From positions 1 through 54,383 of the IMG/VR virus record IMGVR_UViG_3300032282_004873: a stretch of DNA of 54,383 bases; one strand, 5' to 3'. Positions within the stretch are counted from its first letter, which is position 1, and every line of letters starts with the position of its first letter. This DNA is from a virus. The notes under the pieces were generated by a model that saw nothing but the letters and a program-made list of their open reading frames with translations, had not been told where the DNA came from and ran no database searches. Both the position numbers and the translations under genes were made by a program. This document shows positions 2,876-15,019 of the stretch, piece by piece.

Positions 2876-3880
2876 ATGAAGATTAGCGCATATTGCACAG
2901 TCCGTAATGCAGAAGAGATGGAATATCCATACTTGGAGTCCATCCGTAGTCACTTGGCATTTGCAGATGAAGTAGTTGTTTTTGACACAAGCAATGGCAA
3001 AGATGCAACGCTTGAAAAACTAAATGCTTTAGCTGCCGAAGAACCAAAACTTAAAGTTGTTCATAGCGACAAGATTGATTGGAATGCTCCAAATCATGGT
3101 ATGTATGATGGATATACAAAAACATTGTCAAGGAAGCAATGCACAGGTGATGTTCTTTGGCAATTTGACATAGATGAAATAGTGCATGAAAATCATATTT
3201 CATTAATCAGACCGTTAGCAGAAACTTTCATGAAGCAAAATGGTTATGATTTGTTGGCACTTCCTGTGATAGATTATTGGGGACGAGATGGCAAAGCTAG
3301 ATTAGACGTAACCGTATGGAAATGGCGTTTATCTAAAAACTATTCATATATTGTCCACGGCATTCCATTACAACTCCGCAAATATGAAAACGGATTGTTA
3401 TATGCCCATCATGGCACCGATGGTTGTGATTATATTAATGCAGATACTGGGCATATCATTCCATGTGCCGGATATCTTCCTCCTGGTTTTGAACAAATGA
3501 AGCAAGCATCTATTAGAGATGAAAAGCTTGTTGCCAAGGTAGAGAAGTTTTTAAATGAAACATATAGTCAGTTGCCAGGTGTTCACCATTATTCTTGGTT
3601 TAACATAGAGCGTAAGATAAGAAACTTTAGAACGTTTTGGAACTCTTCTTGGAAGAGTTTGTATAATGAAGACAGGGACGAAAGAGGAAATCCATTCTTC
3701 CCAGGTCTTACATGGGAAGAGATTACGGACGAGATGATTAAACAGAAGGCGTTAGAGTTGGAGCAGGGAACCGGCGGTCACGTATTTCATCGTCCTTGGG
3801 ATGGAAGCAAAAATAACTCTTACGTAGTTCATATGGGTCATCCAAATATTGCAAAAGCATGGATTGAGGCAAATAAATGA
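2876..3880 (+). CDS. Glycosyltransferase, GT2-like (GT-A fold)
   Basis: A 334-residue protein starting MKISAYCTVRNAEEM, a usual opening for GT2-like enzymes. The segment EVVVFDTSNGKD (32-43) looks like the nucleotide-binding strand, and LWQFDIDEI (94-102) contains the DxD metal/nucleotide-sugar motif at 98-100. The rest (WGRDGK, HYSWFNIERK) suggests a phage-type member with an extended C-terminal half rich in aromatic and His residues. Donor and acceptor cannot be read. Its stop overlaps the next gene by ATGA, so it is co-translated with the following transferases. Confidence 0.75.
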   Translation: MKISAYCTVRNAEEMEYPYLESIRSHLAFADEVVVFDTSNGKDATLEKLNALAAEEPKLKVVHSDKIDWNAPNHGMYDGYTKTLSRKQCTGDVLWQFDIDEIVHENHISLIRPLAETFMKQNGYDLLALPVIDYWGRDGKARLDVTVWKWRLSKNYSYIVHGIPLQLRKYENGLLYAHHGTDGCDYINADTGHIIPCAGYLPPGFEQMKQASIRDEKLVAKVEKFLNETYSQLPGVHHYSWFNIERKIRNFRTFWNSSWKSLYNEDRDERGNPFFPGLTWEEITDEMIKQKALELEQGTGGHVFHRPWDGSKNNSYVVHMGHPNIAKAWIEANK

Positions 3881-4605
3881 GTAGTGAAATATTATATGTT
3901 TTAATGCCAGTTCACAATGGCTCCAAAACAATTGAAAGAGCCATTAATTCAGTATTTGATCAAAAAAACGTTGATATTGATTATCGCTTATGTGTGGTAT
4001 TAAATAACTGTACTGACAATACCGAAGATATAGTTAAATCATCCAAATGGAATGATAAGATTGATATCTTAAAGTGTAATACAAAAGGCATCGTACCGGC
4101 ATTAAACACAGGTCTATATTTCTGTTTAGGTCGTGGTGCTACTCTTATAGCAAGACAAGACGCTGATGACAAATGGCATCCAAAGAAGCTACAAACTCAA
4201 ATAGAATATTTGAGAGAGAATCCAAATGTAGATATATGTGGCACTTCATTACGATATGTAAAGCCGGATACATTTGAACCTACTCATGAAATGAAATATC
4301 CAACTGAACACGAACAATGTGTTGGATGGTTATTAAAATCACAAAATCCGATTGCCCATCCTTCTGTAGTTTTTAGAAGTAAGATATTAGAGAGATGTGG
4401 GGGTTATGATAATAGTTTGCCATTGGCTGAAGATATGAGTCTATGGTTCCGAGCTATCATTAACGGTTATCGTTTGGGTAATATTGAATATCCTTTAGTT
4501 GACTATACGTTTGTTCCAAATCCCAGATACAATCCTGCTGCTCCACAACTTTTAGCTGCAATCGGAACAAACATTTTAAAAGTATTTGGAGTGCATGAAA
4601 TATGA
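3877..4605 (+). CDS. Glycosyltransferase family 2
   Basis: A 242-residue GT2 enzyme. It has YVLMPVHNGSKTIERAINS (7-25), the nucleotide-binding VLNNCTDNTEDIV (41-53) and IARQDADDKW with the DxD-type motif at 95-97. A downstream acidic stretch (LPLAEDMSLW) matches the ED catalytic-base region of the family. It uses ATGA overlaps at both ends with the neighbouring transferases, so the three are translated as one set. Confidence 0.9.
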   Translation: MSSEILYVLMPVHNGSKTIERAINSVFDQKNVDIDYRLCVVLNNCTDNTEDIVKSSKWNDKIDILKCNTKGIVPALNTGLYFCLGRGATLIARQDADDKWHPKKLQTQIEYLRENPNVDICGTSLRYVKPDTFEPTHEMKYPTEHEQCVGWLLKSQNPIAHPSVVFRSKILERCGGYDNSLPLAEDMSLWFRAIINGYRLGNIEYPLVDYTFVPNPRYNPAAPQLLAAIGTNILKVFGVHEI

Positions 4606-5285
4606 TGATTGATATCATAATTCCAACATATGAATATAAAGGTCTATGTCGTGAAATGTTAGAACAATGTTTGCAGAGTATTGATATGCAAACTTATAAA
4701 AATTACAACGTTATTATCGTCGATCATTCAAAAGACGATGTGATAGAAAAATATGTTAAAAAATGGAAAATTCCAATTTCTTATCATCGTAACGAACGTG
4801 GACGTGGTAATAGTTCAATCAATATGAATGAGGGGCTTAAACTGGCGACCGGAGATTATATAAAAATATTACATATGGATGATTGGTTTTGCAATAAAGA
4901 TGCTTTAGCATTAATGAATATTGCAATTCAAAAAGAACCTGAAAAGAGTTGGGGTGGTTTTGGCTTTAATCATTTCTATGAACAAGAAAATCAAATTTCT
5001 CGCTTTATTAAACCGCACATCAATTCTGATATACGCACTCTTTTAGGCTGTCCTTCTGTTTCATTCTTTATTAACAACAAGAAAGAACCCATATATTACG
5101 ATGAAAATTTGATTATTATTAATGATTCGGATATGCATATCCGACTAGGAAAAAAATATGGCAATCCGATATTAATTGATGACATATGTGTTACAATTCG
5201 TATGCATGAAAATCAAGTTTCAAATAATGTTTCAAATCAAAAACATTTAGAAGAAATTGCTTACTATAGGAAAAAAAATTTTTAA
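4602..5285 (+). CDS. Glycosyltransferase family 2
   Basis: A 227-residue GT2 enzyme. IDIIIPTYEYKGLCREMLE lies at 3-21, NVIIVDHSKDD at 36-46 and ILHMDDWF at 89-96 (DxD-equivalent MDD). It is short, with a brief C-terminal region; NDSDMHIRLGKKYG probably holds the catalytic base. It overlaps the preceding transferase by four bases. This is one of the most AT-rich genes in the window (runs such as aaaaaaaatttt at its end), unlike the genes after 11449. The sugar donor is unknown. Confidence 0.88.
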   Translation: MMIDIIIPTYEYKGLCREMLEQCLQSIDMQTYKNYNVIIVDHSKDDVIEKYVKKWKIPISYHRNERGRGNSSINMNEGLKLATGDYIKILHMDDWFCNKDALALMNIAIQKEPEKSWGGFGFNHFYEQENQISRFIKPHINSDIRTLLGCPSVSFFINNKKEPIYYDENLIIINDSDMHIRLGKKYGNPILIDDICVTIRMHENQVSNNVSNQKHLEEIAYYRKKNF

Positions 5286-5999: not shown

Positions 6000-6064
6000 T
6001 TAATATGTCTCATTACTATTTTGGAACTATTCGAACGTTTTTCGAAATGGTGGAAAAAATATGA
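5996..6064 (+). CDS. 22-codon bridging ORF between two overlapping neighbours
   Basis: ATG 5996 overlaps the TGA of the methyltransferase (ATGA), and its own stop TGA 6062-6064 overlaps the ATG of the epimerase at 6061. It encodes 22 residues starting MINMSHYYFGTIRTFF. No known peptide is recognised. It fills the only gap between the two genes exactly, so it may be a coupling or leader peptide that carries ribosomes across. A chance frame is possible at this length. Confidence 0.35.
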   Translation: MINMSHYYFGTIRTFFEMVEKI

Positions 6065-7098
6065 AAATATTAGTCACAGGTGGCGCAGGTTTTATTGGTA
6101 GTGCTCTGATAAAGAGAATGAGTGAATACGGCTGGTCTATTGATGTAATAGATAATTTATCAAAACAAGTGCATGGAAACTCGCCAGAAACCAACTCTGA
6201 AACGTTTAAAAAAATTAAAAATATTTCTAATGTTATTATTGGCGATGCTAGTGATGTTAAAAGTTATGAAAGTATTTTTGATAAAGAGTATGATTCAATT
6301 ATATGTTTAGCGGCAGAAACTGGGACTGGTCAATCCATGTATCAGGCAAAAAATTATTGCCAATCAAATATAAGCTCAATTGCTTTATTAAATGATTTGA
6401 TAGTGCAAAAAAAGATAATAACAAAAAAAATAATATTAGCGTCTAGTCGAGCAGTTTATGGCGAAGCAACATTGGATAAAAATAAAAATCCATACCCATC
6501 GTCAGAAGATGATAAGCTTGATCCTAAATCAATATATGCTATAACTAAGTTGACACAAGAACAATTGATATTAACAGGATTTCCGGATATATCAGCATTA
6601 ATATTTAGATTTCAAAACGTTTATGGGCCAGGACAAAGTTTAATTAATCCTTATACCGGTATTTTATCAATATTTTCTACGGCATTATTAAATGATAAAG
6701 ACATATACATATTTGAAGATGGATTAATGACAAGGGATTTTGTGTATATTGATGACATAGTAGATGGACTAATATTAGGTATACAATATGAAACTGAACA
6801 AAAGCTTACATTCAATTTAGGCTCCGGAGAAAAAACAACAGTTTTACAAGTTGCAAATACTCTCAAAAGGCTATATCAAAAAGATACACGTATTATCATA
6901 ACTGGCGAAAAAAGAATTGGAGACATAAGACACAATTACGCAGATCTAAAAAAGGCAAATCAAATAGGATATGTGCCTAAAGTTACATTCGCAAATGGAA
7001 TCTGCAAGTTTGCCGAGTGGGTTTTGTCTCAGAATATTAATAAATCCATGTATGAAGAAAGCATACAAGAATTACGAAAAAGTAAGCTATTAAAATGA
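6061..7098 (+). CDS. NAD-dependent sugar epimerase/dehydratase (extended SDR), dTDP-rhamnose 4-epimerase-like
   Basis: A 345-residue extended SDR. The NAD-binding glycine motif is VTGGAGFIGS (5-14). LAAETGTGQSMY (83-94) is a segment I associate with dTDP-L-rhamnose 4-epimerases (WbiB type). ILASSRAVYGEA (125-136) and the catalytic Tyr159-x3-Lys163 follow, with MTRDFVYIDDIVDG as the usual C-terminal SDR motif. It would interconvert a nucleotide sugar at C4, possibly host-made dTDP-rhamnose, since no rhamnose synthesis genes are in the window (inference). Other nucleotide-sugar SDRs cannot be excluded. A GGTGGA ribosome binding site lies in the bridging ORF just upstream. Confidence 0.85.
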   Translation: MKILVTGGAGFIGSALIKRMSEYGWSIDVIDNLSKQVHGNSPETNSETFKKIKNISNVIIGDASDVKSYESIFDKEYDSIICLAAETGTGQSMYQAKNYCQSNISSIALLNDLIVQKKIITKKIILASSRAVYGEATLDKNKNPYPSSEDDKLDPKSIYAITKLTQEQLILTGFPDISALIFRFQNVYGPGQSLINPYTGILSIFSTALLNDKDIYIFEDGLMTRDFVYIDDIVDGLILGIQYETEQKLTFNLGSGEKTTVLQVANTLKRLYQKDTRIIITGEKRIGDIRHNYADLKKANQIGYVPKVTFANGICKFAEWVLSQNINKSMYEESIQELRKSKLLK

Positions 7099-7127: not shown

Positions 7128-7814
7128 ATGAATTATTATGGTGACATTGTTGCTTCAAATGCAAACTTAGGATTCATGTTTGATGAAAATTTTGTTTCGG
7201 CATATAAGAATTGTGTTGAAGCTGATAGAGGTCGTTTATTGTTAAATGGATATGATATACGATGGAGAATACATACATTATTATTTGCAGCCAAATTAGC
7301 AACTAATCTAGATGGAGATTTTGTTGATTGCGGCTGTGGTTTTGGATTGTTTGCATCGGCAATATTGAGTTACATTAATTTGCAAAACACGAACAAAAAA
7401 TATTATATGTTCGACACCTTTGAAGGACTTTCTGAAAAGTATAGTACATCTGACGAAATGATAAGAAATACGTTAATTTATAAAACTATTCCTTCATATT
7501 ATGATGAAGTAGTTGAACGTTTTAAAAACAAAGAATATGTTCGGATTGTAAAAGGAGCAGTACCGGAATCTTTAGCTGAAGTCAATATTGATAAAGTAGC
7601 TTTTTTAAGCATTGATATGAACTGTGTAATACCTGAAGAAAAAGCTTTGGAGCATTTTTGGCCTCGTTTAGTTAGTGGTGGAGTTATAGTATTTGATGAT
7701 TATGGATTTCCAAAGCACGAAGAACAAAAGAAAGCTCATGATTCATTTGCAGCAAAACATAATTTGGTAATATACACGTCTCCTACTGGTCAAGGAATTT
7801 TAATTAAGCCATGA
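7128..7814 (+). CDS. TylF/MycF-type macrocin O-methyltransferase family protein
   Basis: A 228-residue protein of the TylF family. GDFVDCGCGFGLFAS (63-77) is motif I; YYMFDTFEGL (92-101) is a family hallmark; VRIVKGAVPESL, then FLSIDMNCV and GGVIVFDDYG (about 185-194), carry the acidic residues that bind metal and substrate. Known members methylate a sugar hydroxyl (macrocin, or mycinamicin III at its javose unit). GAAAGG sits upstream with good spacing. Its TGA overlaps the ATG of the GT10-like gene. Methylation of a deoxysugar built by this cassette is the straightforward reading. Confidence 0.87.
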   Translation: MNYYGDIVASNANLGFMFDENFVSAYKNCVEADRGRLLLNGYDIRWRIHTLLFAAKLATNLDGDFVDCGCGFGLFASAILSYINLQNTNKKYYMFDTFEGLSEKYSTSDEMIRNTLIYKTIPSYYDEVVERFKNKEYVRIVKGAVPESLAEVNIDKVAFLSIDMNCVIPEEKALEHFWPRLVSGGVIVFDDYGFPKHEEQKKAHDSFAAKHNLVIYTSPTGQGILIKP

Positions 7815-8623
7815 GTTCACACCTAAACATAGATATAAAATGTGATTTTATATCTTTTGACTTGTACCATGAAAAGAAGCTTGAATTGTATGTGAATCAA
7901 ATACCAACGGCTGCTCCAGAGCAAAATACATTAAGATTTGTCTATATTATTGAACCATATCAAATATGTGACTTAAGATATCAGGCTTTAGCTAGCTACA
8001 AAAAAACATATGATTTTCTTTTGACGCATGATGAAACTCTATTAAAGAAAGTTGACGGTTCATACCTAATGGAATTTGGTTCCTGTTGGATTAGAGATTT
8101 TCAGCACGAAGATAAAGAATATTCTGTTTCTTTCCTCTGTGGTGGCAAAACAATAACGTCTGGGCATAACCTCAGACACGAGATATGGAACTCTTCTCAG
8201 CTAATCAATATCCCTAAAAACTTTTTTATATCCGGCAATTATTCCGGTGGCTTACATAACTCATATGGATATCCGAGACTAGGAAATAAAAAGCATCAAT
8301 TATTTCAGAGTATGTTTCATATATGCATAGAAAATGTAAAAAACAATAACTTCTTTACTGAAAAGTTGATTGATTGTTTGTACGCAAAAACCGTCCCAAT
8401 ATATTACGGCTGTCCTAATATTGGAGATTGGTTTGATACACGTGGTTTTATTATCGTTGACAATGTTAATGATGTTGTTGAGGCAACCAACAACCTGACG
8501 ATTGATACGTATATGCAAAAGCTTGAATATGTCAACAGCAATTATTTGGCTTGTTTAAAATTTGCCGATTTCAATCAACACGTTAAAAATAAAATAGAGA
8601 GTATATTAAGCTTGTTTCCATGA
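7811..8623 (+). CDS. GT10-like (alpha-1,3/4-fucosyltransferase family) glycosyltransferase
   Basis: A 270-residue protein with the fucosyltransferase donor-binding block near its C-terminus. FHICIENVKNNN (169-180), FFTEKLIDCLYAKTVPIYYG (181-200) and CPNIGDWF match the GT10 pattern of F-x3-x-EN, TEK, and a VP-x2-x-G end. Members transfer L-fucose from GDP-fucose, and some phage and bacterial members use related GDP-sugars. The N-terminal acceptor half is short. The donor is likely the product of the neighbouring Gmd and Fcl/ColC-like enzymes. It overlaps the genes on both sides by four bases. Confidence 0.8.
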   Translation: MSSHLNIDIKCDFISFDLYHEKKLELYVNQIPTAAPEQNTLRFVYIIEPYQICDLRYQALASYKKTYDFLLTHDETLLKKVDGSYLMEFGSCWIRDFQHEDKEYSVSFLCGGKTITSGHNLRHEIWNSSQLINIPKNFFISGNYSGGLHNSYGYPRLGNKKHQLFQSMFHICIENVKNNNFFTEKLIDCLYAKTVPIYYGCPNIGDWFDTRGFIIVDNVNDVVEATNNLTIDTYMQKLEYVNSNYLACLKFADFNQHVKNKIESILSLFP

Positions 8624-9537
8624 CAAAGATTTTAATTACTGGTGCTACTGGAATGGTTGGAAGAAATATAGTTCTTCATCCTGCTGCTAATGATTTTGAC
8701 ATACTAGCTCCATCCCGAAAAGAATTGAATTTATTTGAATCAGGCTCGGTTAACTCCTATATAAAAACTCATAAGCCTGATGCGATAATTCATTGTGCCG
8801 GTAAAGTAGGTGGCATACAGGCTAATATTAAAAATCCATATGGCTTCATGTATGAAAACATGATTATGGGTCTGAACCTAGTGAACGCTGCTAAAGAACA
8901 AGGTATCGAGCGTTTAATTAATCTTGGAAGCTCTTGTATGTATCCAAGAAATGCAACCAATCCTCTAACAGAAGAAACGATACTAAAAGGCGAACTGGAA
9001 CCGACAAATGAAGGATATGCCATAGCAAAGACTGCAATAGCCAAACTATGTGTATATGCCGGAACAGAGGGGTATAAGTATAAGACCCTCATTCCTTGTA
9101 ACCTATATGGATATTGGGATAAGTTCAATCCAGAGACTAGTCATATGATCCCGGCAATAATACACAAAACGCATCAATCCAAAATAAATGGAAATACTCC
9201 AGTTGAAGTTTGGGGTACTGGTAATGCAAGAAGAGAGTTTATGTTTGCAGAGGATTTAGCAGATTTTATATATTTTTCTATTAATAAACTTGATTTGATT
9301 TCTGATATGATGAATGTAGGTTTAGGAATTGATTATTCGGTACGTGAATATTATCTAGCTGTTAAAGAAGTTTTAAATTCAGAAGCGGATTTAAGATTTA
9401 ACTTGGAAAAACCTGAAGGAATGAAGCAAAAAGTTGTTGATGTAAGTAAACAACAAAAATTAGGATGGTTTCCTAAAACAGACTTACATACCGGAATTGA
9501 AAAAACCTATAAGCATTATATGGAGCATCATAAATGA
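8620..9537 (+). CDS. fcl: GDP-L-fucose synthase / ColC-like 3,5-epimerase-4-reductase
   Basis: A 305-residue NADPH-dependent SDR. GATGMVGRNIV is at 8-18; INLGSSCMYPRNA (100-112) contains the catalytic Ser and Cys106; Tyr133-x3-Lys137 lies in NEGYAIAKTAIAK; SHMIPA contains His175; VWGTGNARREF follows. These match GDP-fucose synthase residue for residue, including the Cys/His pair used for epimerisation. It would turn GDP-4-keto-6-deoxymannose into GDP-L-fucose. ColC of colitose synthesis is a homologue acting on the 3-deoxy substrate. With a ColD-like gene immediately downstream, that role is an equal alternative. It overlaps both neighbours by ATGA. Family certain; substrate open. Confidence 0.92.
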   Translation: MTKILITGATGMVGRNIVLHPAANDFDILAPSRKELNLFESGSVNSYIKTHKPDAIIHCAGKVGGIQANIKNPYGFMYENMIMGLNLVNAAKEQGIERLINLGSSCMYPRNATNPLTEETILKGELEPTNEGYAIAKTAIAKLCVYAGTEGYKYKTLIPCNLYGYWDKFNPETSHMIPAIIHKTHQSKINGNTPVEVWGTGNARREFMFAEDLADFIYFSINKLDLISDMMNVGLGIDYSVREYYLAVKEVLNSEADLRFNLEKPEGMKQKVVDVSKQQKLGWFPKTDLHTGIEKTYKHYMEHHK

Positions 9538-10694
9538 AAGAGATAAAACTGGTTTCAGACACTATCGATAAAGCCGACATTGAACGGTTAACTAAATGGC
9601 TTTCTAGCGATCAAATTCCGAGACTTACTAAAGGTCCAGTTACGATTGAGTTTGAAGAAAAATGGTCCTCTTATTTGGGAGTTAAGCATACCACGTATGT
9701 AAATTCCGGTTCTTCAGCAATACTATTGGCGCTAGCTGCTCTTAAACAAGCTGGGCTTAAAAATGAAAAAGTTGTTGTACCAACATTAAGTTGGCTTACA
9801 GACATATCTTCAGTAATGCAGCTTGGTATGCAGCCTATTTTGTGTGATTGTAATCTTACTGACTTGTCAGTTGATTTAGAGCATCTAGAAAATATATTCA
9901 TCAAAGAGGAGCCGTCTGTTTTAATATTGGTTTCTGTTTTAGGCTTAGTGCCACAGATGGACAAAGTTTTAGAGCTTTGCAAAAAACATAACGTTCTATT
10001 AATAGAAGACGTGTGTGAAAGTATGGGCTCTGAATATAATGGGAAGAAGCTTGGAACATTTGGAGACATATCTCTGTTCTCTCTATATTACGGACACCAT
10101 CTAAGCACGATTGAAGGCGGACTAGTCTGTACAAATAATGAAAGTCTTTATTACGTAATTAATTCAATGAGATCTCATGGCTGGGATCGTGATTGGCCAA
10201 AAGAAGTTCAAGAAAAATATCGCAAAGAATATCAGGTATCTGATTTTGATGCCCTATACACTTTCTATTATCCAGGCTTCAACTTAAGGGCTACCGATTT
10301 GCAGGCTTACATTGGTTTGACACAGATTGATAAACTCAACAATTTTGCAAAAATAAGAAATAACAATTTTCAAACATACAACAGACTCCTGACAAAGAGT
10401 CTTCTTAACATTAGAAATGACCAACAAAATTTCATTTCTAATTTTGCCTATCCATATCTTTCAAACAATAGAAATAAAATAGCAAATGCATTGATGGAAA
10501 ACAACGTTGAAGTACGTCCATTGATAGCAGGTTCCCTCGCACGTAAGCCATTTTGGTATAAAACCTATGGCATTGTGGCGCTTCCGAATGCAGACTTGAT
10601 CAATGAAAAAGGTTTTTATATCCCAAATCATCAAGATTTGACAGAGGAAGATATCTCAAGGATATGTGATATCATTCACGAAAACGAGGAATGA
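9534..10694 (+). CDS. colD: ColD-like PLP sugar 3-dehydratase (DegT/StrS fold with Lys to His)
   Basis: A 386-residue DegT/DnrJ/EryC1/StrS-fold protein. NSGSSAILLALAAL (57-70) binds the PLP phosphate, and LIEDVCESMGSEYNGK (156-171) holds Asp159 for the pyridine nitrogen. At the position of the Schiff-base lysine the sequence reads SLYYGHHLSTIEGG (183-196), so His188 replaces Lys. This swap is the mark of GDP-4-keto-6-deoxymannose 3-dehydratase (ColD) and of CDP-sugar E1, which deoxygenate C3 rather than transaminate. The SMRSHGWDRDWPK and PGFNLRATDLQA stretches also recall ColD, and no Cys-rich iron-sulfur region of the E1 type was noticed. With Gmd and a ColC/Fcl-like gene beside it, GDP-colitose synthesis is likely (inference). 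Confidence 0.85.
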   Translation: MKEIKLVSDTIDKADIERLTKWLSSDQIPRLTKGPVTIEFEEKWSSYLGVKHTTYVNSGSSAILLALAALKQAGLKNEKVVVPTLSWLTDISSVMQLGMQPILCDCNLTDLSVDLEHLENIFIKEEPSVLILVSVLGLVPQMDKVLELCKKHNVLLIEDVCESMGSEYNGKKLGTFGDISLFSLYYGHHLSTIEGGLVCTNNESLYYVINSMRSHGWDRDWPKEVQEKYRKEYQVSDFDALYTFYYPGFNLRATDLQAYIGLTQIDKLNNFAKIRNNNFQTYNRLLTKSLLNIRNDQQNFISNFAYPYLSNNRNKIANALMENNVEVRPLIAGSLARKPFWYKTYGIVALPNADLINEKGFYIPNHQDLTEEDISRICDIIHENEE

Positions 10695-10695
10695 A

Positions 10696-11433
10696 ATGAT
10701 CTTATCATTATTAAAGGGTGGATTAGGAAATATGATGTTCCAAATTGCTGCTGGAGCATCATTGTCTCATGACTTGAATACAGAGTTTGTTTATACTTTG
10801 GATGGCTGGAACTGCGTAACAAACTATAATATTCAAAACTTTCCGAATACTATTTTTAAAAAGCTTAAGCAGGTTAAGATAGATTCCTACGTAGGAAACA
10901 TCAGCTTATATAGAGAAAAAGATTTTTCTTACAGCCCGGTGCCTGCAAATAGTAATCTTGCACTTGATGGATATTTTCAGAGCGAGAAATATTTTACACA
11001 CAATAGAGAACATATCAAATCTCTTTTTGATATTCCTGTTGATGCGAAATATAAAGACCATACCTTCATGCACGTTAGAAGAAAAGACTATTTGTTGCAT
11101 TCGCAAGTTCATCCAACTTGCCCTGTTTCATATTATAAAGAAGCATTAAATGTCATAGGCGCAGATAAGGTTATCATATTGAGTGATGATATTGATTGGT
11201 GCCGAAAGAATATTGATATTGGACAGGCAGAATTTAGTATGTCTAAAACAGAAATTGAAGACTTGTCTATAATGATATCATGTAAAAATTCAATTATAGC
11301 TAACAGCACCTTTAGTTGGTGGGGAGCCTGGTTATCAGATAGTGATAAGGTTATTGCTCCAAAAATGTGGTTTGGTCCACAAGGTCCAAAAAACTGGACT
11401 GACATATATGCTAGAAATTGGATAACGATTTGA
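10696..11433 (+). CDS. GT11-type glycosyltransferase (alpha-1,2-fucosyltransferase family)
   Basis: A 245-residue GT11 enzyme. KGGLGNMMFQIAAG (7-20) is the family opening, HVRRKDYL (126-133) the GDP-sugar binding block, VIILSDDIDWC (159-169) and ANSTFSWWGAWLS (202-214) the C-terminal motifs. The start is ATG 10696, six bases after the GAGGA site at 10686-10690 that lies inside the end of the dehydratase gene; an upstream in-frame codon at 10666 lacks support. GT11 members use GDP-L-fucose, some GDP-colitose. It is the second fucosyltransferase-type enzyme in the cassette, implying at least two linkages. Confidence 0.9.
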   Translation: MILSLLKGGLGNMMFQIAAGASLSHDLNTEFVYTLDGWNCVTNYNIQNFPNTIFKKLKQVKIDSYVGNISLYREKDFSYSPVPANSNLALDGYFQSEKYFTHNREHIKSLFDIPVDAKYKDHTFMHVRRKDYLLHSQVHPTCPVSYYKEALNVIGADKVIILSDDIDWCRKNIDIGQAEFSMSKTEIEDLSIMISCKNSIIANSTFSWWGAWLSDSDKVIAPKMWFGPQGPKNWTDIYARNWITI

Positions 11434-11448
11434 GGATTGAGGGGCTTT

Positions 11449-12426
11449 ATGCAGAAGACGGCATTTATTACTGGTATCACCGGACAAGATGGTTCTTACC
11501 TTGCCAAGTTACTTTTAGACAAAGGTTATCTTGTTGTAGGCATGAAGAGAAGAACTTCTCTTATAACAACAGACAGATTAGATGATGTTGCAATTTTCAG
11601 TCATCCAAATTTTAGACTTGAATACGGCAATATGACCGATTCAAGTTCTATGTATACTCTTCTTATGAAGTACAAGCCGGACGAGATCTATAACCTAGCT
11701 GCACAGAGCCATGTACGAGTTTCTTTTGAAGTCCCAGAGGAAACCTTAGACGTAGTTGGTGGTGGCGTATTGAAGCTTCTAGAGGCTTATAGGCTAATCT
11801 GCCCACAAGCACGTTTCTATCAAGCATCGTCTTCAGAGATGTATGGAGACAACGTTAACGTTCCTCAAAATGAGGAGACACGTATGACACCGGCTTCTCC
11901 ATATGCTTGTGCTAAGTTGTATGCTCATAATCTTTGCCGTAACTATCGTGAAGGTTATGGGCTTCATATATCTTCTGGAATTCTTTTTAATCACGAAAGT
12001 CCAGTAAGAGGTGAGACGTTTGTTACTCGCAAGATTACTCTTGCAGCAGCTAATATTAAGCTTGGCAAACAAGAAACATTATATCTTGGAAATCTTGACG
12101 CAAAGAGAGATTGGGGATTTGCTGGAGATTATGTTGAGGCAATGTGGTTAATGTTGCAACAACCAAAAGGCGATGATTATGTAATTGCTACTGGAGAAAC
12201 ACACACGGTTAGTGAGTTCCTACAAGTTGTGTTTGACCATGCCGGTTTAGACGTTAACAAACACGTCAAGATTGATTCACGACTATATCGCCCACATGAG
12301 GTTCCAATATTGCTTGGTGATAGTGCTAAAGCTGAAAGAATATTGGGATGGAAACCAAAGACAACATTCCGTGGTTTGGCTGAAATGATGTATGAGGCAG
12401 ACTATCATAGAGCTTTAAATCTTTGA
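11449..12426 (+). CDS. gmd: GDP-mannose 4,6-dehydratase
   Basis: A 325-residue SDR with every Gmd hallmark: [18 protein letters not shown] (6-23), [13 protein letters not shown] (82-89), [10 protein letters not shown] (124-133), catalytic Tyr152-x3-Lys156, and [16 protein letters not shown] (180-195). [18 protein letters not shown] and RPHEV follow. It makes GDP-4-keto-6-deoxymannose, the branch-point substrate for both the Fcl/ColC-like and the ColD-like enzymes upstream. ATG 11449 is chosen because GAGGGG (11439-11444) precedes it by four bases; a TTG at 11437 would extend it by four residues but overlaps that site. Codon use is less AT-biased than in the transferases upstream. Confidence 0.97.
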
Positions 12427-12491: not shown

Positions 12492-13823
12492 ATGTCAGAA
12501 GAGAACACATTTCTCACCGCTTTTAATTTTAAAAAGAAGTATAAGGTAATCACCCTTTCAGATCATCCACTTGCGCCATCGGGCGTTGGTGTTCAAGCTC
12601 GTTTCTTGATTGATGGTCTTATCAAGACCGGTCAATGGTCATTCCGCTGCTTAGGCGGCGCTATGAAGCACGCAAAGTATGACACCATAGCTGTGAACCC
12701 TGACTTCATTGTAAAGCCTGTAGACGGCTTTGGAAGCAAGGAATTGATACGTCAGCTTCTCATTGCAGAACAGCCTGATGCTATCTTCTTGTTTACAGAT
12801 CCACGTCAGTTCACTTGGCTTTGGGAAATGGAAGATGAAATCCATCAAGTATGTCCAATCGTCTATTGGCACGTTTGGGACAATGATCCATATCCAGCAT
12901 TTAACTTCCCATGGTATGAAAGCACCGATCTAATCAATTGCCTTTCTTATAAGACATTTGAACTAGTCAAGCCACATTTCCCAGAGAAGACCAACTACAT
13001 TCCTCACACCTTCCCAAAGCAAGTATATAATCCTCTTCCAGAACAACAGATTGAACAACTAAAGAAGCAAAACTTTGGTGCAAAAGCTGATTGGTTTAAG
13101 GCTCTTTGGGTTAATCGTAATGCTACACGTAAAATGCCTAACGATGTTCTATTCTCATGGAAGACATTCCTTGATGATCTTGAAAAGAAAGAAGGACACC
13201 GTAATGCAGTTCTAATCATGCACACAGATCCTGCTGATATGGAAGGTCCAAATCTTCTTGCTGTATCTGATATGCTTGGATTAAACGATAACGTTTGGTT
13301 CTCAAATGATCGTCTCCAGTTTGAGCAAATGAATGTTATGCATAATCTTGCAGACGTAACAGTTAACATTTCAAAGAATGAAGGCTTCGGTCTTTCTACC
13401 CTTATTTCATTACAGGTTGGCAAGCCAATCATTGCTCTTAAGACCGGCGGCGAAACACGTCAGGTAGAAGATTATCGTAATGGTTATCAATACGGCGTTG
13501 CTATTGAACCAGCCAAGCGTTCATTAGTTGGTTCACAGATGGTTCCTTATATCTTTGAGGACTACTGCACAGAACGTCAGCTAGCAGATGCTTTTATGGA
13601 GATTTACAGTTGGACACCAGAGAAGAAGGCAGAGTTCCGTGAGAAAGCTGCTGAATATCTTGAGCATGAGTTCAAGTATGAAAATATGGTTCAACAATGG
13701 CATGAAACTATGTTAAAGTGTGTAGAAGACTTTAAGGCTAACAAGGAAGCTGGAACAAATAAGCGTTGGAAGCTAACAGGCATTAATCCAGCTCCTGCTA
13801 ACAAGTTAATCAATATCAAGTGA
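12492..13823 (+). CDS. Glycosyltransferase, GT4-like (GT-B fold)
   Basis: A 443-residue GT-B enzyme. The N-terminal domain opens with VITLSDHPLAPSGVGVQARF (18-37), a glycine-rich acceptor-side loop. The C-terminal domain has LWVNRNATRK, AVLIMHTDP and ISKNEGFGLSTLISLQVGK, the E-x7-E-type motif that contacts the donor nucleotide, then PIIALKTGG. The length is normal for GT4. A strong GAGGAGA site precedes it but lies in a hairpin. A second GT4-like gene follows at once. Sugar and acceptor are unknown; the codon use matches Gmd and late genes rather than the very AT-rich transferases at 4600-8600. Confidence 0.85.
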   Translation: MSEENTFLTAFNFKKKYKVITLSDHPLAPSGVGVQARFLIDGLIKTGQWSFRCLGGAMKHAKYDTIAVNPDFIVKPVDGFGSKELIRQLLIAEQPDAIFLFTDPRQFTWLWEMEDEIHQVCPIVYWHVWDNDPYPAFNFPWYESTDLINCLSYKTFELVKPHFPEKTNYIPHTFPKQVYNPLPEQQIEQLKKQNFGAKADWFKALWVNRNATRKMPNDVLFSWKTFLDDLEKKEGHRNAVLIMHTDPADMEGPNLLAVSDMLGLNDNVWFSNDRLQFEQMNVMHNLADVTVNISKNEGFGLSTLISLQVGKPIIALKTGGETRQVEDYRNGYQYGVAIEPAKRSLVGSQMVPYIFEDYCTERQLADAFMEIYSWTPEKKAEFREKAAEYLEHEFKYENMVQQWHETMLKCVEDFKANKEAGTNKRWKLTGINPAPANKLINIK

Positions 13824-13837
13824 TAAGGGATATAGTA

Positions 13838-15019
13838 ATGGCAAAGAAAACAGTTATACTTCGTGGTCCGGTATTAACCGAAAGTGGTTATGGCGTTCAT
13901 GCTCGTCAGGTAGCTCGTTGGCTATTTGATTTGGCAGATAGAACTGGTAATATTGATGTTGTTACAGAGCCTCTTCCATGGGGCGCTACTCCTTGGCTTG
14001 TTGATGCATATGCTCATGATGGTCTTGTAGGTCGTCTTATTCAAGCTGCTGGCAAAAGAGACAAATATGATGTTTCTCTTCAACTACAGCTACCAAACGA
14101 ATGGAATCCTTTCCTTGCAGACTTTAACGTTGGATTAACTGCTGGCGTTGAAGGCGATGTTTGCAATCCTGCATGGATTTCATCTATCAATCGTATGGAC
14201 CTTGTAATCGTTCCATCAGAGTTTGTTAAAAACGTATTCGCAAATACTGGCGAAATAAAGACAAAGATGGTTGTTATTCCAGAAGCATTTATTGATGCTG
14301 TCGCCAAGCCAGAACTACCAACACTTGATTTGGAAGACATTAAAACAGAAACCAATTTCCTACTATTTGGTCAAGTTACTGGAAACAATCCAGAGAATGA
14401 TCGTAAGAATCTTTTCTACAGCGTTAAATGGATTTGTGAGCAGTTCAAAGACAATCCAGATGTTGGCGTTGTAATAAAGACAAATACTGGTCGTCATACA
14501 GTTGTAGATCGTCTAAGAACTACAAATCTATTGGCACAACTTACCATGGAAGTCAAAAACGGAGCAGAGTTCCCAAAGATCTATCTACTTCATGGAGATA
14601 TGAGCGATAATGAAGTAGCAGCTCTTTATCGTCATCCAAAGATTAAAGCTCTTGTAGCTCCAACAAGAGGTGAGGGTTTTGGTCTTCCTATTCTTGAAGC
14701 AGCAGCATCTGGTCTTCCAGTTATTGCTACCGGTTGGAGTGCTCACACAGAGTTCCTTGGCAAAGGCAAGTATGTAAAGCTTGACTACAGACTCGAGCAG
14801 ATTCATCAAACCCGAGTAGATAATCAGATCTGGATGCCAAACGCCAAATGGGCAAACGTAAAGGAAGATGATTTCAAGCATCGCCTTAAGAAGTTTGTAG
14901 AAAGCCCACAGATGCCACAGCAATGGGCTAAGGAGCTGTCAGAAACTCTTAAGAAGGAATATTCTTTTGAGGTGGTTTCAGCTCAATACACAGAAGTTCT
15001 TAAGGACGTATTAGGATGA
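13838..15019 (+). CDS. Glycosyltransferase, GT4-like (GT-B fold)
   Basis: A 393-residue GT-B enzyme. VILRGPVLTESGYGVHARQV (5-24) parallels the glycine-rich opening of the preceding transferase. VIVPSEFVKNVF marks the inter-domain region, and PTRGEGFGLPILEAAASGLP with VIATGWSAHTEFL is the classical GT4 donor site. The start is ATG 13838, with AAGGGA at 13825-13830 (7-base spacing); the frame is open back to GTG 13820 overlapping the previous stop. The end overlaps the next gene by ATGA. The two GT4 genes look like a functional pair adding successive sugars (inference). Confidence 0.88.
   Translation: MAKKTVILRGPVLTESGYGVHARQVARWLFDLADRTGNIDVVTEPLPWGATPWLVDAYAHDGLVGRLIQAAGKRDKYDVSLQLQLPNEWNPFLADFNVGLTAGVEGDVCNPAWISSINRMDLVIVPSEFVKNVFANTGEIKTKMVVIPEAFIDAVAKPELPTLDLEDIKTETNFLLFGQVTGNNPENDRKNLFYSVKWICEQFKDNPDVGVVIKTNTGRHTVVDRLRTTNLLAQLTMEVKNGAEFPKIYLLHGDMSDNEVAALYRHPKIKALVAPTRGEGFGLPILEAAASGLPVIATGWSAHTEFLGKGKYVKLDYRLEQIHQTRVDNQIWMPNAKWANVKEDDFKHRLKKFVESPQMPQQWAKELSETLKKEYSFEVVSAQYTEVLKDVLG

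Follow-up and report, generated by a model that had tools for sequence, protein, structure and literature searches.

Could a phage use enzymes of its own to make a 3,6-dideoxyhexose, one of the sugars that serve as surface antigens of bacteria? The question is raised by positions 8620–12426 of a virus record of 54,383 bases (hereafter the window), where an earlier sequence-only reading had placed a GDP-colitose branch consisting of GDP-mannose 4,6-dehydratase (Gmd), a ColD-like enzyme with His for Lys and a short-chain dehydrogenase/reductase (SDR) of the Fcl/ColC type. All three open reading frames (ORFs) are present there and intact: 8620–9537 (305 amino acids), 9534–10694 (386 amino acids) and gmd, which ends at 12426. 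The start codons of 8620 and 9534 each lie within the stop of the preceding gene (ATGA), and these two ORFs overlap by 4 nucleotides (nt). A GT11-family gene that the reading had omitted (ATG at 10696, end at 11433) sits between 9534 and gmd, its start codon one base past the 9534 stop. With a probability of roughly 0.68, we read this four-gene set as a phage GDP-L-colitose module (Gmd, 3-dehydratase and ColC), colitose being a rare sugar of bacterial surface coats, and thus as what is probably a full set of phage enzymes for making a 3,6-dideoxyhexose. The set and the glycosyltransferase gene upstream of it are as follows.

7811–8623, plus strand: GT10-family (fucosyltransferase-type) glycosyltransferase (PF00852, 28.1 bits against a cut-off of 23.9)
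8620–9537, plus strand: ColC-clade SDR, proposed GDP-4-keto-3,6-dideoxymannose 5-epimerase/4-reductase (from identity, clade and catalytic residues)
9534–10694, plus strand: His-type nucleotide-sugar 3-dehydratase dependent on pyridoxamine phosphate (PMP), ColD-like (from His188, best PDB match ColD and tree)
10696–11433, plus strand: GT11-family glycosyltransferase, candidate colitosyl- or fucosyltransferase (PF01531, 96.1 bits against a cut-off of 23.9; 29.3% identity to WbgN)
11449–12426, plus strand: Gmd, GDP-mannose 4,6-dehydratase (TIGR01472, 442.8 bits against a cut-off of 415); the ATG at 11449, preceded by a GAGGGG stretch, is the more likely start than the TTG at 11437 given in the ORF list

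In the proposed pathway, whose chemistry we carry over by analogy from the ColD and ColC literature, Gmd would convert GDP-mannose, presumably the host's, to GDP-4-keto-6-deoxy-D-mannose. The 9534 enzyme, its PMP charged by glutamate, would form a Schiff base at C4; His188 would take a proton from the cofactor, the C3 hydroxyl would depart and hydrolysis would yield GDP-4-keto-3,6-dideoxy-D-mannose. Inversion at C5 and reduction at C4 with NADPH by the 8620 enzyme would then give GDP-L-colitose, which the GT11 enzyme, perhaps together with that of GT10, may move onto a glycan. This suggests remodelling of a surface sugar by the phage in the course of infection, and the neighbouring glycosyltransferases would fit either a host-surface glycan or the virion as the target. 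WbgN, a GT11-type enzyme from Escherichia coli O55, is annotated for colitose transfer and is described in PMC12409901 as accepting GDP-activated colitose, fucose and L-galactose; since it takes fucose as well as colitose, membership of GT11 alone does not fix the donor. The GT11 protein of the window had no PDB match at E 0.001.

The His-type enzyme at 9534

The 9534 protein has the DegT/aminotransferase fold and carries the motif SLYYGHHLSTIEGG, the first His of which is residue 188. As had been read from the sequence, this His replaces the Schiff-base Lys of aminotransferases, and it aligns in register and number with His188 of ColD. In an alignment of 42 rows, made from relatives chosen as 3-dehydratase-like, 20 columns are invariant and that of His188 is among them, and no Lys column is invariant or 90% conserved; because its column is invariant, His188 is a family trait and not a chance substitution. 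With invariant active-site columns, no conserved Lys column, and ORFs that are intact and coupled, it is extremely unlikely that the genes are decaying passengers or that 9534 transaminates by means of a different Lys. A review (PMC8987622) describes the Lys-to-His swap as the chief difference between 3-dehydratases and aminotransferases; it also describes the regeneration of ColD PMP by glutamate.

The same residue recurs in viral relatives. Loci were collected in three scans, each keeping its best 80 without de-replication, and neighbouring genes were classed by phmmer score thresholds that we set; ORFs were labelled 3-dehydratase or aminotransferase according to their better score against His or Lys references. 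Of 171 viral ORFs that scored as 3-dehydratase, 169 have His at the equivalent position (the exceptions being one truncated ORF and one weak Lys match), and all 11 that scored as aminotransferase have Lys; contigs recur between scans. Each of the best 80 of 593 confirmed IMG/VR loci found with the 9534 family carries a His-type enzyme.

Searched against the PDB with phmmer, 9534 scored highest with ColD (178.6 bits), followed by E1 (147.8 bits) and perosamine synthase (134.9 bits). Its fold model (predicted local distance difference test, 96.0) was also matched first to ColD by Foldseek, and VIA-align gave a Z of 48.3 for ColD (root-mean-square deviation 2.0, 368 aligned), 46.5 for E1 and 45.5 for GDP-perosamine synthase. 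Likeness between a model and a known fold is by itself no proof of function, and identity to E. coli ColD is 28.9%. GDP-perosamine synthase, whose substrate is GDP-4-keto-6-deoxymannose, shares the fold but is a Lys aminotransferase (K186A mutant entries), in contrast to the His188 of 9534. E1/RfbH (CDP-4-keto-6-deoxyglucose 3-dehydratase) shares both the fold and the His-for-Lys swap, but carries the segment DCYCAPGCDNTC, where 9534 has no Cys, and falls on a separate branch. None of the six Cys of 9534 lies within the Cys-rich segment of E1, a Cys-spacing pattern has no match in the protein, and the [2Fe-2S] Cys cluster is absent, on which ground an E1-type enzyme was rejected. In the account given by the review, the cluster is present in E1 and SpnQ and absent from ColD (PMC8987622).

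Phylogeny gave the same division. In a 111-row tree (quick method, with the active-site column kept in the alignment, and L006, L010, L012, L014, L020, L021 and ORFs below 300 amino acids left out), nine Lys rows were separated from 102 His rows with a Shimodaira–Hasegawa-like approximate likelihood ratio support of 100. 9534 stands among the His rows, apart from the sampled aminotransferases, and this position together with His188 led us to reject a Lys aminotransferase. The His side includes the branches of E1 (support 90, 4 rows) and ColD (100, 6 rows), together with a large one (99, 91 rows). This last has no characterised reference among the set used, and contains the 9534 subclade and, elsewhere, the enzymes of S-CAM7 and ACG-2014f. 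The description of 9534 as ColD-like is therefore borne out by the His-type active site and by the best match in sequence and fold, but not by descent, as the protein belongs to a sister branch; its mode of action is probably ColD-like, although it is not ColD proper.

It is very unlikely that the substrate of 9534 is a different nucleotide sugar (CDP- or dTDP-linked, or a GDP-heptose) and that the product is something other than colitose. Campylobacter ColD homologues are described as acting on a GDP-heptose (PMC10440746), and the best-scoring NCBIfam model for 9534 is RfbH, at 224 bits and thus under its cut-off of 423; yet the protein lacks the E1-type Cys cluster, and Gmd lies nearby not only in the window but in 50 of the best 80 of the 593 viral loci. 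Those 80 loci hold an Fcl-family SDR in 64 cases, both SDR and Gmd in 42, GT11 in 34 and GT10 in 32, with an SDR no more than 300 nt away in 43. The frequency of Fcl-family SDR and Gmd around the family points to a GDP sugar.

The ColC-clade SDR at 8620

The 8620 protein shares 50.2% identity with ColC of E. coli O55 (350 bits) and 36.4% with WcaG, a fucose synthase. Among solved structures, the top match is a fucose synthase (249 bits), no ColC being named among the matches listed, and this match would mislead: plain Fcl was rejected on the comparison of 350 with 249 bits. Against the GDP-L-fucose synthase model NF047922, the protein scored 306.7 bits, under the curated cut-off of 500. Four trees place it in the ColC clade rather than the Fcl clade, with supports of 98/94 (two over-long or gappy rows removed), 100 by a quick method (a further seven divergent rows out, four long-branch and three without the Cys/His pair; 37 of the 80 ColC-alignment loci considered), 100/100 (seven rows removed) and 100 with FastTree. 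In the 100/100 tree the clade has 17 rows, including 12 bacterial ColC, two of them identical. The assignments of 8620 to the ColC family and of the adjoining dehydratase to Gmd, both made from the sequence, are thus upheld.

Residue-level evidence is less discriminating. 8620 keeps the Ser/Cys/Tyr/Lys/His catalytic set (WcaG positions 107, 109, 136, 140 and 179), in an alignment from which the duplicates L006, L021, L023 and L107, SDR ORFs below 280 amino acids and weak matches were left out, but this set is common to Fcl and not diagnostic for ColC. The protein also matches 14 of 14 ColC-diagnostic positions, a result that is partly circular because the window was in the set that defined them; a fair test comes from the Flavobacteriaceae rows.

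Functional meaning comes to the ColC clade from a neighbour control in the Flavobacteriaceae. A ColC-like match at E 1e-80 was found in 7 of 397 genomes (a lower bound, as part of the candidates in each genome were scored), and all seven genes adjoin a His-type ColD and Gmd, one of these genomes having first turned up through its ColD. By comparison, the 3.9-kb loci of 23 Fcl genes (from 23 of 199 genomes) contain no DegT-fold gene, although Gmd is there in all 23. The seven out of seven suggests specialisation of ColC-clade genes. At a further locus, L058, a ColC-clade gene lies immediately upstream of a 3-dehydratase from the same branch as 9534.

Several observations weigh against a dedicated colitose module. 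First, 9534 falls outside the E. coli ColD clade, the six-row ColD branch being separate from its own 91-row branch. Second, 8620 retains the Cys/His pair used by Fcl; in human fucose synthase, one Cys and one His are described as serving both epimerisations (PMC12362431). Because the pair is kept, sequence does not decide the substrate of 8620, and its residues would also fit a 3-hydroxy sugar. Third, beyond the Flavobacteriaceae, Fcl-type SDRs are found at 3-dehydratase loci: 80 bacterial loci chosen by their 3-dehydratase have an Fcl-type SDR in 28 cases and ColC in 4, so that neither SDR class nor 3-dehydratase strictly predicts the other. Fourth, the contigs L117 and L118, with identical SDRs, share the neighbourhood of the window (ColC 59%, Gmd 82%, GT4 enzymes 62% and 56%), yet the pair of 3-dehydratase and GT11 is missing between their ColC and Gmd, and in L120 (5998–8001) and L121 (5998–8004) a single ORF of 668 and 669 amino acids, respectively, encodes a ColC-clade SDR and Gmd as a fusion. 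The records of L117, L118, L120 and L121 (17.8, 48.6, 320.5 and 46.8 kb, each of which may be a fragment) yielded no 3-dehydratase, and hence phage ColC-clade SDRs apparently can work without one, perhaps as fucose synthases.

These four records, in which a ColC-clade SDR and Gmd occur without the 3-dehydratase, would also fit a scheme in which 8620 is mainly a GDP-L-fucose synthase serving GT10 and GT11, while 9534 opens a separate 3-deoxy branch completed by the host, the SDR at 6061 or another phage enzyme. GT10 and GT11 are fucosyltransferase families (Pfam), and the 3-dehydratase adjoins an Fcl-clade SDR in S-CAM7 and ACG-2014f. We consider this scheme rather unlikely in view of the 4-nt overlap between 8620 and 9534, and of residue 168, which is Lys in 8620 as in O55 ColC, six of the seven Flavobacteriaceae ColC, L015, L058 and L083. 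The residue is Asn in L117/L118 and 22 of the 23 Flavobacteriaceae Fcl, and His in L120/L121, but also Ser in L077 and Thr in L289, although both of these loci hold a 3-dehydratase; chosen post hoc, it is a possible specificity marker and a lead only.

Alternatively, 8620 might be bifunctional, making GDP-L-fucose and GDP-L-colitose in a ratio set by 9534, with glycosyltransferases that take both donors. Its catalytic Cys and His are those of Fcl, the ColC clade is found both with and without a 3-dehydratase, and WbgN is described as using several GDP-sugars (PMC12409901). The presence of ColD in all seven Flavobacteriaceae ColC-clade loci suggests specialisation instead, and we regard dual function as unlikely. 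A grouping of bacterial ColC with the window and L015 to the exclusion of L117, L120 and L121 was weakly rejected (approximately unbiased test, p 0.034, for a group defined after the tree had been seen), indicating that the ColC-clade SDRs accompanied by a 3-dehydratase do not make up one clade. Syntenic locus pairs with and without the 3-dehydratase make the question of fucose versus colitose specificity directly testable. Within the window, the 3-dehydratase and GT11 genes (9534–11433) look like one unit, missing from that interval in the syntenic L117 and L118.

Distribution in phages and closest known systems

How unusual is such a set in a phage? The sequence-only reading had considered it uncommon, and this held for one part. 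Gmd, an Fcl-family SDR and the 3-dehydratase are a common combination, the rarity of which was rejected as cultured cyanophages and many IMG/VR contigs have it, while pairing with a ColC-clade SDR is rare. By tblastn, 76 phage records out of 50,697 contain relatives of 9534 (best 35.6%), and 54 of the 76 are named Synechococcus; the active site, read in four of these records, is His in three and Lys in one (L112). Among the best 80 of 108 loci found by ColC alignment, 63 hold a His 3-dehydratase, 61 Gmd and 50 both. A 161-row tree was built with the SDRs from 158 of the 160 loci of the ColC-alignment and 9534-family scans, leaving out two repeats of the L015 contig and four ORFs below 270 amino acids. 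Besides bacterial rows, its ColC clade contains only the window, L015 (the same contig as L107, L119 and L235), L117, L118, L120 and L121, and the 3-dehydratase is present in just two of the six viral records, the window and L015.

The SDRs otherwise present in the best 80 of the 593 9534-family loci belong to a third class in 29 cases and to the Fcl type in 4, and are unassigned by our thresholds in 31, with double counting possible. This third class scores low against ColC and Fcl references, forms its own clade and has the same catalytic residues. It takes in the SDRs of L001–L003, L005, L007–L014, L016, L018, L019, L022 and L108, and is mostly phage (18 of its 22 rows in one tree). The SDR of L122 (at 6001), from a locus with Gmd and 3-dehydratase, is the viral one that comes closest to the ColC clade without falling inside it. 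In BFVD no close viral model was found: identities in the first six rows are 16–19%, and four of these rows are named giant viruses.

By the thresholds used, manB/manC were found in 0 of 80 ColC-alignment loci and 0 of 102 3-dehydratase loci, and had no match within the window; given their absence from the loci scored, GDP-mannose would be supplied by the host. A wider and more doubtful picture, which we put forward tentatively, is that aquatic phages have in common a core built on a His-type 3-dehydratase, often accompanied by Gmd, GT10 and GT11, while the SDR that completes the sugar is exchanged between three or more classes (ColC, Fcl and the third). They might thereby make different 3,6-dideoxy or 6-deoxy sugars that vary the glycan of the host or virion surface, some lineages gaining or losing the 3-dehydratase and GT11 as a unit.

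Among known systems, E. coli O55 has all four protein families of the window, in the form of gmd, colC, colD and WbgN, a GT11 alpha-1,2-colitosyltransferase (L111). Besides the ColC, ColD and WbgN identities given above, the two Gmd proteins are 49.4% identical, and colC and colD overlap in O55 as 8620 and 9534 do. In contrast to O55, the window set is phage-borne, runs in the order colC, 3-dehydratase, GT11, gmd, draws its 3-dehydratase from a sister branch and has no manB/manC match. In S-CAM7 (KU686213) and ACG-2014f (NC_026927), gmd, an Fcl-like SDR, a His-type 3-dehydratase and a glycosyltransferase (GT11 by score) are consecutive, annotated in S-CAM7 as GDP-mannose dehydratase, GDP-fucose synthetase, putative CDP-4-keto-6-deoxyglucose-3-dehydrase and GT11. 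Unlike those of the window, their SDRs lie in the Fcl clade and their 3-dehydratases in a different subclade, with 34–36% identity to 9534.

Gmd, fucose synthase and fucosyltransferases have been described in cyanophage S-SCSM1 (PMC9602691), and a list of viral metabolic genes includes gmd, fcl and ascC/ddhC/rfbH (PMC10653327). Our literature search on colitose and bacteriophage, judged largely by title, found no account of phage-made colitose. The chemistry is already known from bacteria, and the interesting aspect is the pattern of exchange around the phage set. As related enzymes in phage genomes, cultured cyanophages included, are named ‘aminotransferase’ or ‘hypothetical protein’, phage sugar chemistry is probably under-read.

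Neighbouring genes and phage affiliation

Further genes for sugar and glycan metabolism flank the proposed module on both sides.

2876–5285, plus strand: three glycosyltransferase-like ORFs (PF00535), at 2876–3880 (GT2 match under the Pfam cut-off), 3877–4605 and 4602–5285 (GT2)
6061–7098, plus strand: GalE/RmlB-type SDR, specificity not assigned (Pfam, NCBIfam and PDB matches)
7128–7814, plus strand: TylF-type methyltransferase-like protein (PF05711, 57.1 bits)
12492–15019, plus strand: two GT4-type glycosyltransferases (Pfam), kept beside Gmd in sister contigs (synteny)

The proposal of a T4-like phage is backed by one baseplate-wedge protein, for which the best match is phrog_219 (E 2e-15) and the closest relatives with a named host are from Microcystis and Flavobacterium phages (31–32% identity). 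Nine of ten ORFs tested at 20–46 kb had no PHROG match, which makes any assignment to a phage group tentative. The G+C content of 8620–11000 is 0.35; since the rest of the window spans 0.33–0.43, the profile gives no evidence for import of 8620–11433. At 5–8 kb, in the sugar gene block, G+C falls to 0.31, compared with 0.38–0.41 over Gmd and the GT4 genes. Near the left end of the window, a TTG-start ORF (112–1242) resembles IMP dehydrogenase/GMP reductase at scores under the curated cut-offs, and 1247–2209 encodes a PD-(D/E)XK nuclease-like protein (PF12705), of which L117, at its left edge, and L015 have relatives.

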